A DNA stretch of 64,000 nucleotides from NCBI GenBank assembly GCA_016929595.1, contig JAFGIN010000143.1:1-64000 (forward strand). Reading direction: 5' to 3'. The translations under genes and the position numbers were made by a program. The notes beneath the pieces are model-generated. The model was not told where the DNA came from and did no database searches. It saw only the letters and a program-made list of their open reading frames with translations. This document shows, piece after piece, positions 57,936-60,847 of the stretch (positions within the stretch are counted from its first letter, which is position 1; every line of letters begins with the position of its first letter). Origin of the DNA: Chitinispirillaceae bacterium. GTDB taxonomy: Bacteria > Fibrobacterota > Chitinivibrionia > Chitinivibrionales > Chitinispirillaceae.

Positions 57936-59168
57936 TCAATATTTATAGAATAGAAGGTCATTGATTGTTGCATTATTGAACTTCACTTCATCTATCCAGA
58001 CTGAATTTCCTTTCAATTCAATTGGAAAGGTAACCCAGTGCAGACGTGACCTGACGCCCTGCCAGCTCGTATGGTAGGTATCTTTAATGAGCATATCTGT
58101 AGTTGCAATTTTGTACAATTTCCAGGTGGAATCAAGTGTTACCTTGTATGTTGCCTGAGGCATATTCCACGGTTCTTCTCCGTGTAGCCGAACGGTTATC
58201 TGATCATTTCCTTTGGCCATAAAGGATATTGTGTCGATATTTGAAAAACCAACCGTGTTAAATCCGAGTCTGATGCCTGGAATGAGGAATTCAGTGCTGT
58301 TGTTGTTTACAGGAAGGTATTCCAGGTGTAATGATTTGTCTTTAAATGCGCCGTCACTTGAAACAAGTGCATCCAATATATTTACGTATGCAGTGTCTAT
58401 CTCCCGGGTGGTCGGGAATGTCACTGCTATATGAGTTGATTTTACTACGTACCAATAGGCTTTTTTTTGAAATTTTGCCAAAGGGCTCCAGTAACCTTCA
58501 TGGTCAAAATTGTCAATAAGGAGATTTGTGAAATCGCATTCGAATGCAGATTCGATCTCCTGGGCTTCTGCAATGATTTGAGTACCTGCTTCAGCCAGTC
58601 TGCTGACATTTTTAGTCGTATTGATGGAAACAGCAATGAGTGTATACTCACCGGGAGGGATACCTGTGAAAGAAAACTGTGATGTCTGGGGGGAAAAGGG
58701 TGTACTATAATCGGTGCCCATAAGAGCGATATACTCCGGTATATCACCGTTACAGGTCAGGGTACCGCTCAGTGTTCCGTGTTGCTCAAGATAGATGGTA
58801 TCGAGTACAAAATTTCTTCCAAGCTCAATAGTTGTAAAAATGCCTTTATTCTGGCAATCGATAAGGAGATTTACTTTTTTATAGGAACGTATAATGTAAT
58901 CGGGTATGGTGAAAAAGCCGTTACTGTCGGATACTGTTGAATCTATTACAACAGGTTTGTTCAATGCGATATTCTGAAACCAGCTCTCAGGATTGATAAA
59001 GCGAACAGATGCGCCTTTTTTAATAACCCCGTTTCGTTCTGCAACTGCGTACGTATTGATTGTTTCTGAACCGCCGTTACCTGAAATTGGGGCTACGGAG
59101 CAATTTATATGTGGTAGTGACAGCAGTACAGTCGTTAAAAAGAGTAGTTGTTTGATTCTTAAGATCAT
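57936..59168 (-). CDS. Predicted surface lipoprotein with carbohydrate-binding-like C-terminus
   Basis: A 410-aa secreted protein with a signal peptide (KQLLFLTTVLLSLPHIN then Cys23, a lipoprotein-like but atypical lipobox). Carboxypeptidase regulatory-like Ig segments follow (about 45-125 and 130-190). The C-terminal part (about 218-410) resembles a CBM11/CIA30-type jelly roll: LLIDNFDHEGYW, ISFMAKGNDQITVRL, STWKLYKIATTDM and VWIDEVKFN. It may bind polysaccharide at the cell surface. It overlaps the TIGR02147 gene by ATGA. Confidence 0.8.
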   Translation of the reverse strand: MILRIKQLLFLTTVLLSLPHINCSVAPISGNGGSETINTYAVAERNGVIKKGASVRFINPESWFQNIALNKPVVIDSTVSDSNGFFTIPDYIIRSYKKVNLLIDCQNKGIFTTIELGRNFVLDTIYLEQHGTLSGTLTCNGDIPEYIALMGTDYSTPFSPQTSQFSFTGIPPGEYTLIAVSINTTKNVSRLAEAGTQIIAEAQEIESAFECDFTNLLIDNFDHEGYWSPLAKFQKKAYWYVVKSTHIAVTFPTTREIDTAYVNILDALVSSDGAFKDKSLHLEYLPVNNNSTEFLIPGIRLGFNTVGFSNIDTISFMAKGNDQITVRLHGEEPWNMPQATYKVTLDSTWKLYKIATTDMLIKDTYHTSWQGVRSRLHWVTFPIELKGNSVWIDEVKFNNATINDLLFYKY

Positions 59169-60007
59169 ACTTTGGTCCTGTGGTAGTTACCAGGTGTTGA
59201 CGCTACAGGAATCAGTTGAACATTGAGTTGATAGATCATTTCCGGCTCCGCTTCATTTTCGATAACCTTGCGCAGAACATTCTTCCGAAACTCTGCAATC
59301 ATTGCCTTAAATTCCGGAAGAGTGTTCTTAGGTAAGGATATCGTTACTGATGATATATCCCGCAGTTCTGGTGGATCGTTAATAAGAGATTGCTCACTCA
59401 ATTGAATTGTCTGTTGCTGAAAGTGTCGGACTGCAAGCATTCTCCAGTTGCCGCCACCAGAAATAAACTTCTCGGTCATTTTCAGTATACCGTCAGTATT
59501 TTTTGAAATCAGTCCCAGTTCCAGGAGGAGTTCGATGGATTCCCGAACTTCTGCTTCGCTTATCGCAGGAGTAAGGAGTTGACCGAATTTCTTATAATCT
59601 CCATCGAACGGGAATATTTCGAGTAAAATTCTTACAACTGAATAATACCATTTATGATAAAAATGATCCTGATCCGGTTTTAAACTCGGAATACTCAGAT
59701 CTTTCAGCTCCATCAGCTTATCGAAATAAAGGCTGGTTTCATCTCCGGTTTTTGCTTTGTTGAAACGTACAAGACAGGTAAAATACTCAGCTTCTCTCTG
59801 TTCCAATCCCAGGAAAGATATAAAATCAGGGAGCACTCTTTCGGAGATATGTCTTTGCCCCTGTAAAATTTTAACGAGTTGTCCAGCGTCAATTTTAAGT
59901 TTTTGAGCAATCAACCTGTATGAAAACCAGGATTTTTCCTTCCGGATCTCATCAAAGTGTTCCTTAAGGAAGGAACGATAGTCTAACGATTCAAAAAGCT
60001 TTTTCAT
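59165..60007 (-). CDS. TIGR02147-family (DUF4423) protein
   Basis: A 280-aa protein of the TIGR02147 family, known mainly from Fibrobacter and relatives. The N-terminus (LDYRSFLKEHFDEIRKEKSWFSYRLIAQKL, seen 8-37) includes a helix-turn-helix-like segment, then a DUF4423 domain (FLGLEQREAEYFTCLVRFNKAKT). Members are thought to be DNA-binding regulators linked to surface or secreted proteins, and here a lipoprotein gene follows with an ATGA overlap. No good ribosome site precedes ATG 60007. Divergent from an ECF sigma-factor gene. Confidence 0.88.
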   Translation of the reverse strand: MKKLFESLDYRSFLKEHFDEIRKEKSWFSYRLIAQKLKIDAGQLVKILQGQRHISERVLPDFISFLGLEQREAEYFTCLVRFNKAKTGDETSLYFDKLMELKDLSIPSLKPDQDHFYHKWYYSVVRILLEIFPFDGDYKKFGQLLTPAISEAEVRESIELLLELGLISKNTDGILKMTEKFISGGGNWRMLAVRHFQQQTIQLSEQSLINDPPELRDISSVTISLPKNTLPEFKAMIAEFRKNVLRKVIENEAEPEMIYQLNVQLIPVASTPGNYHRTKV

Positions 60008-60062
60008 ATAATATAATATAAAGAAAAAATAATGCTGATTTAACTCGTATTAAAATTTATGA

Positions 60063-60123
60063 TGGCATATTTGCCAACATAGTCAATTAACTCAAATTAT
60101 AGCATGTTGGCATGAAGGCCAAC
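60063..60123. promoter_or_regulatory. Paired TGGC-N6-GCCA palindromes, candidate operators
   Basis: Two copies of TGGC-N6-GCCA: 60063-60076 and 60108-60121, the second extended to GTTGGC-N6-GCCAAC. Their starts are 45 bp apart, about four helical turns. They also form a long inverted pair (TGCCAACAT with ATGTTGGCA). They lie between the divergent TIGR02147 and ECF sigma genes. Confidence 0.6.
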
Positions 60124-60226
60124 GATAAATACTATTGGTGTTTTAAAAAACCGCTAAAAATAATAAAATTTGTTTATTATAACTGTAGGATGATCAAAAA
60201 TTCAACACTTAAAAGCAAAAGACATT

Positions 60227-60847
60227 ATGCAGAAAACTGAAATGCTCGAACCACCAGTACTTCCAAGTGAAACCAGTCTGCCCAGGCATCCGGAACCTGA
60301 TGCCGAACTACTTGAGAAATGCAGAGACGGTGACAGAAATGCATTCAGGACTCTGTTTTACATGTATCGATCATATGTAAAAAACATAATCTATAAGATA
60401 ACCGGAGTTCACAGTGAGCATGAAGATCTGATTCAAAGTGTGTTTATGCAGATGTATGTCTCATTTCATACTTTTAAAGGCGATTCATCTTTTAAAACCT
60501 GGTTTCATCGCCTGGTTCTATACAATTGTATTAACTGGTTGAGGTATAATCAGGCCGGGAAAAGAAATGGAAAATTTATTTCTGCGGAAATCGAGTCCAT
60601 TGAAGATAACCTTCTGGATCATGGAACCAATCAGCTTAATGCACTGCTGATGCGTGATCTGGTAAGCAAAGCTTTGAAACTGTTGAGTATACGTTTACGT
60701 GTACCGCTCGTACTGAGTGTATATAGTGACCTTAACATATCGGAAATAGCACTGATTCTTAAAGTTCCGGAAGGTACTGTTAAGAGCCGGTTGTTCGCTG
60801 CCCGAAAAATTATCAAGGATTTTGTACTGTCAGCTGAGCTTGTCTGA
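60227..60847 (+). CDS. ECF-type RNA polymerase sigma factor
   Basis: A 206-aa sigma factor. Region 2 (about 33-100) has AFRTLFYMYRSYVKNII, EDLIQSVFMQM, and FKTWFHRLVLYNCINWLR; region 4 (about 150-195) has VPLVLSVYSDLNISEIALIL and PEGTVKSRLFAARK. No anti-sigma gene is adjacent. A 30-aa N-terminal extension, Pro/Glu rich, precedes region 2. Divergent from the TIGR02147 operon, with shared operator-like sites, so it may be co-regulated with it. Confidence 0.92.
   Translation: MQKTEMLEPPVLPSETSLPRHPEPDAELLEKCRDGDRNAFRTLFYMYRSYVKNIIYKITGVHSEHEDLIQSVFMQMYVSFHTFKGDSSFKTWFHRLVLYNCINWLRYNQAGKRNGKFISAEIESIEDNLLDHGTNQLNALLMRDLVSKALKLLSIRLRVPLVLSVYSDLNISEIALILKVPEGTVKSRLFAARKIIKDFVLSAELV

Follow-up and report, generated by a model that had tools for sequence, protein, structure and literature searches.

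In class-I activation of the CRP type, the palindrome is centred at -61.5, the classical class-I activator position, no good -35 box is present and one activator serves many promoters. For hemicellulase genes, HTCS, ECF/anti-sigma systems and catabolite repression are reviewed as the canonical systems, and Fibrobacter is not mentioned in the text of that review (PMC10766802). The Fibrobacter succinogenes genome paper treats the regulation of the cellulase genes as an unanswered question, with few regulators near them (PMC3079729). In the literature searched, no function, operator or target was described for TIGR02147 or DUF4423; DUF4423 appeared once, as a table entry, and TIGR02147 was not mentioned, which agrees with the first-pass annotation, to which no reported TIGR02147 operator was known.

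The window, i.e. the whole stretch of 64 kb analysed, carries a gene for a TIGR02147 protein and a divergent gene for an ECF-type sigma factor, separated by 219 bp (60008-60226). As described in the first-pass annotation, this gap contains two TGGC-N6-GCCA palindromes (60063-60076 and 60108-60121) spaced 45 bp apart, the second of which lies within GTTGGC-N6-GCCAAC (60106-60123). Feature coordinates are presented in Table 1. We consider it probable that a dimeric HTH protein of the TIGR02147 family binds 20-bp palindromes at these positions and acts as a class-I activator of its own operon and of the ECF sigma gene. The protein, probably a dimer, would recognize TGTTGGCA-N4-TGCCAWCA. Operator A would serve TIGR02147 and the translationally coupled lipoprotein gene and operator B the divergent sigma gene, each from 39 bp upstream of a -10 box, and the bound protein would recruit RNA polymerase as a class-I activator. 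Since operator A is assigned to the regulator's own operon and operator B to the sigma gene, the likely wiring is a regulator that activates its own expression and, in addition, that of a sigma factor.

Table 1. Features of the TIGR02147/ECF sigma locus (window coordinates).
Feature	Position	Strand	Basis and remarks
Predicted lipoprotein (410 aa, GGSETIN motif), partner gene	57936..59168	-	Start overlaps TIGR02147 stop by 4 bp; same arrangement in orthologs
TIGR02147 family protein (NCBIfam Fsuc_second; C-terminal DUF4423, PF14394), predicted DNA-binding regulator	59165..60007	-	Profile matches
Residues 41-52 (AGQLVKILQGQR), predicted recognition helix and next turn	59852..59887	-	Best predictor of operator inner bases; helix 41-48 in AF2 model
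Predicted -10 box TATATT, TIGR02147 promoter	60015..60020	-	Positional signal; +1 about 60008, practically leaderless
Operator A (putative), TGTTGGCAAATATGCCATCA	60060..60079	-	Ortholog conservation at -72 to -76; TIGR02147-lipoprotein operon; centre -61.5
Operator B (putative), TGTTGGCATGAAGGCCAACG	60105..60124	+	Same sequence class, -10-like box 39 bp on; ECF sigma gene; centre -61.5
Predicted -10 box TAAAAT, ECF sigma promoter	60164..60169	+	Positional signal; +1 about 60176
ECF-type sigma factor, predicted to be activated from operator B	60227..60847	+	Pfam Sigma70_r2 and r4_2; extra copy, this genome only

The predicted arrangement resembles CRP-type class-I activation in that TIGR02147 palindromes are centred at -61.5, without a good -35 box, and that one activator would serve several to many promoters. 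Unlike CRP, TIGR02147 is an unrelated family with many paralogs that have different operators, is apparently autoactivating and has a lipoprotein gene as partner. With HTCS and anti-sigma systems it shares the tie to polysaccharide-degrading regulons and the many paralogs per genome; instead, an HTH-DUF4423 regulator is paired here with a lipoprotein. Domain searches of the TIGR02147 and lipoprotein products found no histidine kinase, response-regulator or anti-sigma domains.

Genome-wide frequencies were determined by pattern searches. TGGC-N6-GCCA matched at the two sites in the window and nowhere else in it (0.6 expected; two or more matches in 9 of 100 shuffles). The genome scan proposed in the first-pass annotation gave a chance frequency (69 places versus 71 for the reversed control in 6.6 Mb), and searches covering 400 bp ahead of each of the other 53 TIGR02147 genes gave no match. 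The motif was thus rejected as a general TIGR02147 operator. The annotation had counted a random frequency or absence at other TIGR02147 loci against an operator; both were found, and they mislead as an operator test because specificity differs from paralog to paralog. The window palindromes themselves, judged from orthologs and co-variation, most likely serve the TIGR02147 protein as operators. The actual operator unit is the 20-bp palindrome, not TGGC-N6-GCCA.

Exact copies of GTTGGC-N6-GCCAAC occur at two places only in the 6.6 Mb genome. The copy outside the window (G000:C118:29092-29111; L154:2093-2112) is intergenic, 77 bp before an L-PSP-domain gene, with flagellin genes nearby and without a clean -10 box; it is a possible further target. 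Other near-matches to the window operator that were inspected were mostly intragenic. Two identical palindromes, TGTTGATATGTAATTCAACA, lie 611 bp apart elsewhere in the genome (L164:1892-1911 and 2503-2522; G000:C195), with no TIGR02147 gene identified nearby.

Outside the genus, clear orthologs of the TIGR02147 protein (65-70% identical) were found in four genomes; the next best match reached about 42%. The position of operator A is kept in all four, the 20-bp palindrome starting 72-76 bp before the gene. The window form is TGTTGGCA-AATA-TGCCATCA and those of the orthologs are TGTTGGCATCCCTGTCATCA, TGTTGACACCTCTGCCATCA, TGTTGGCACTTTTGTCATCA and the weaker AATTGGCAGCCCTGCCACCA; their consensus is TGTTGRCA-N4-TGYCATCA, less well matched in G004. 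The lipoprotein gene directly follows TIGR02147 in every ortholog, and an ECF gene adjoins it in none. A second, perfectly symmetric copy of the palindrome is found after the lipoprotein gene in three of the four. In G008 and G010 it stands ahead of GH5 glycosidase genes. In G001 it lies about 0.5 kb upstream of an MFS transporter gene, which has a GH5 gene as its divergent neighbour. The fourth ortholog has a GH94 gene as divergent neighbour. The closest ECF relatives elsewhere (49-52% identical) are without the operator, and the search for operator-carrying ECF orthologs gave 0/9. For operator B, comparison between genomes gives no separate support, because the ECF gene is a target in a single genome; the gene is a predicted target on the strength of site B itself.

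In a set of 81 TIGR02147 genes from across the family, some of them close relatives, 22 had GTTG-N10-CAAC within the 250 bp before the gene; any other spacing was found at 0-3. After thinning to less than 55% identity the count was 10/60 (other spacings 0-3). In the window genome, YGTTG-N10-CAACR was found at five paralogs versus 0.085 expected (P = 3e-8). The common element is GTKG-N10-CMAC within a 20-bp palindrome, and the inner bases differ between paralogs. One subfamily carries nearly all of these sites (28/45 versus 2/43 outside); the strict site is absent from 17 genes of this 45-gene clade. GQLVKILQGQR-type proteins go with inner bases GGCA (palindrome TGTTGGCA-N4-TGCCAACA), GFLLKVLQGKH-type proteins with GAA (operator GTTGAA-N6-TTCAAC), SYLAKVL..ARHI-type proteins with GTGGACA and the Fibrobacter-type GNLLRISQGKI proteins with TTGT. 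Twin palindrome copies at most paralogs were rejected as a general feature, with few clear cases in the fetched flanks (L022, L002 and the window).

The TIGR02147 protein of the window matches the NCBIfam profile over its full length (259 bits versus a cutoff of 50, profile positions 1-270 of 272). It belongs to a large paralogous family of Fibrobacterota, with 54 matches in the window genome and none in 14 control genomes. DUF4423 was identified by Pfam and an N-terminal multi-helix fold was predicted; the Pfam search of this protein gave no HTH hit, and the sequence search for solved relatives in the PDB returned none. The AF2 model, which is weak (mean pLDDT 63), places helices at residues 10-24, 30-36, 41-48, 56-66 and 70-84. 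With regard to the N-terminal five-helix fold of XRE/lambda-repressor-like HTH proteins, a fold search with this model gave HigA-type matches at E values of 0.2-0.5 only, which are not significant. In a sliding-window Mantel test, residues 41-52 gave the best prediction of operator distance (partial r = 0.43, permutation p = 5e-4; all windows, mean 0.05, sd 0.11). As the model is modest and the fold matches are not significant, the HTH assignment draws mainly on this co-variation of residues and operator. Because the inner bases track residues 41-52, the TIGR02147 protein itself is the likely binder of the window palindromes; binding and dimerization are predictions from sequence. The assignment of the palindromes as operators is strong computationally.

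About 48 of the 54 TIGR02147 genes in the window genome (G000) have a lipoprotein-like gene immediately after them, as selected with a crude lipobox filter, and 23 of these overlap TIGR02147 by 4 bp. TIGR02147 and the lipoprotein form an undescribed two-gene module. As the pairing is near-universal, a sensory role may be guessed for the lipoprotein. Many of the partners have a G-x-S-x-T-x-x-N-like motif after the lipobox. At L220:4320-6808 the order is reversed, with the lipoprotein gene first and overlapping TIGR02147, and CGTTGAAGCCGCTTCAACG lies upstream of the pair.

The promoter geometry was first spotted by eye in the orthologs, in which TATATT lies about 40 bp past the palindrome, and was then tested on 41 promoters (23 thinned TIGR02147 and 18 target promoters), sets that include the training cases. 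A TANNNT hexamer (TATATT-like -10 box) was present at a gap of 38-41 bp in 30/41. The -10-like peak at the expected gap had z-scores of 5.7 and 6.3 in the two sets separately and 8.5 combined (family-wise P <= 0.001, the permutation limit). No -10 signal was found on the opposite side of the palindrome in the 41 promoters, and no -35 box was evident at the expected offsets (TTGACA z-scores near or below 0). Three tested targets had no clean -10 box at the expected gap (the GH5 gene of G010, GH26 and SGBP-like). In 168 genomes, GTTG-N10-CAAC-N39-42-TATATT gave 199 hits versus 15 for the reversed control (summed by hand, training cases included). Unrelated palindromes such as GTTTCC-N4-GGAAAC and TGATCAC-N5-GTGATCA, found at paralogs that do not belong to the subfamily, had the same centre-to--10 distance (49-50).

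Start sites were predicted by setting +1 seven bases after the -10 box, which gives the operator centres listed in Table 1. Given these centres and the lack of an evident -35 box, class-I recruitment of RNA polymerase is probable. Promoter geometry is what suggests activation rather than repression, and a centre at -61.5 is no proof of it. The spacing of the two palindromes had been taken in the first-pass annotation to fit cooperative binding. Cooperativity is superfluous because each operator has its own -10 box 39 bp away, and the two sites do not recur together at 45-bp spacing; the distance simply results from two promoters placed back to back. The TIGR02147 ATG lies seven bases after the -10 box in the window and 6-9 in many relatives. 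By the predicted starts, TIGR02147 transcripts of this type are nearly leaderless, unlike those of most target genes. A second divergent site pair, about 77 bp apart and with a TATATT box on each side, was seen at L337 (G016:C384:15998-16139); one side leads to a GH10 xylanase gene.

Autorepression is common among HTH regulators, and on the same palindromes the TIGR02147 protein might block RNA polymerase instead of recruiting it. Operator A contains TTGGCA, which together with N17 and TTTAAT makes a possible -35/-10 pair, and TTGGCA-N17-TACTAT is found in operator B. The -35 overlap, and with it repression, was rejected as a conserved feature: what the orthologs keep is TATATT, about 40 bp past the site, and not the TTTAAT box. 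With no -35 signal 17 bp before the TATATT-like box and an activator-like geometry that holds over many promoters and target genes, we regard repression as improbable.

It is less probable still that the palindromes belong to another protein that controls TIGR02147 and the hydrolases, either the ECF sigma factor, through GCCAAC as a -35-like element, or an unrelated regulator. The ECF gene does adjoin operator B, and binding by TIGR02147 is itself a prediction; however, the orthologs retain operator A without an ECF neighbour, related ECF genes lack the site, and the inner bases follow the TIGR02147 clade, best of all residues 41-52. A sigma element would also not be expected to be a symmetric palindrome that differs by paralog. 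A chance origin, at least for operator B, would fit the genome-wide frequency of TGGC-N6-GCCA and a pair of matches that is only mildly unusual for the window. It is very hard to reconcile with the conservation of operator A, the rarity of exact GTTGGC-N6-GCCAAC and the -10-like box at the expected gap from operator B, and we give it hardly any weight. Class-I activation by the TIGR02147 protein is therefore retained as the preferred reading.

Across the phylum Fibrobacterota, related pairs of regulator and site are found ahead of genes for secreted enzymes of plant polysaccharide digestion. The same site geometry is seen in front of genes for xylanases, mannanases, esterases and some proteases, most of which are secreted; the genes after such operator-like sites encode GH5, GH10, GH11, GH26, GH43, GH62 and CE15-type enzymes, SASA and deacetylase esterases and secreted proteases. 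In nine genomes of the genus Fibrobacter, YGTTGT-N8-ACAACR occurred up to 11 times per genome versus 0-1 for the control in most; G050 and G060 had no clear excess. Most of the sites inspected lie about 80-115 bp ahead of the start codon, and the genes behind them encode GH11 xylanases, glucuronoyl esterases, SASA-type esterases, a polysaccharide deacetylase, CotH and TIGR02147 itself. Among the sites retrieved with the phylum-wide pattern, those of the GTTGAA type lie ahead of GH10, GH30-like, GH43 and GH62 genes in four genomes; in a further genome they lie ahead of genes for predicted secreted metallopeptidases. In the window genome, the operon of one paralog is flanked by twin sites, one of them before an esterase and GH26 operon.

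It is possible, and is proposed here tentatively, that the secreted polysaccharide-degrading enzymes of Fibrobacterota are controlled mainly by TIGR02147 proteins. A genome would then encode up to 50 or more of these class-I activators, each of them autoactivating, with its own palindrome set by the recognition helix and with a translationally coupled envelope lipoprotein that may report the substrate. A candidate regulator family can thereby be named, with its operator, promoter geometry, specificity helix and predicted regulons (xylanases, mannanases and esterases), and a large family of uncharacterized function becomes a readable protein-DNA recognition code.

CotH-kinase proteins were repeatedly found with the xylanase-type operator in Fibrobacter-genus genomes (L287, L279, L281 and L268), which suggests that their role is linked to polysaccharide degradation.
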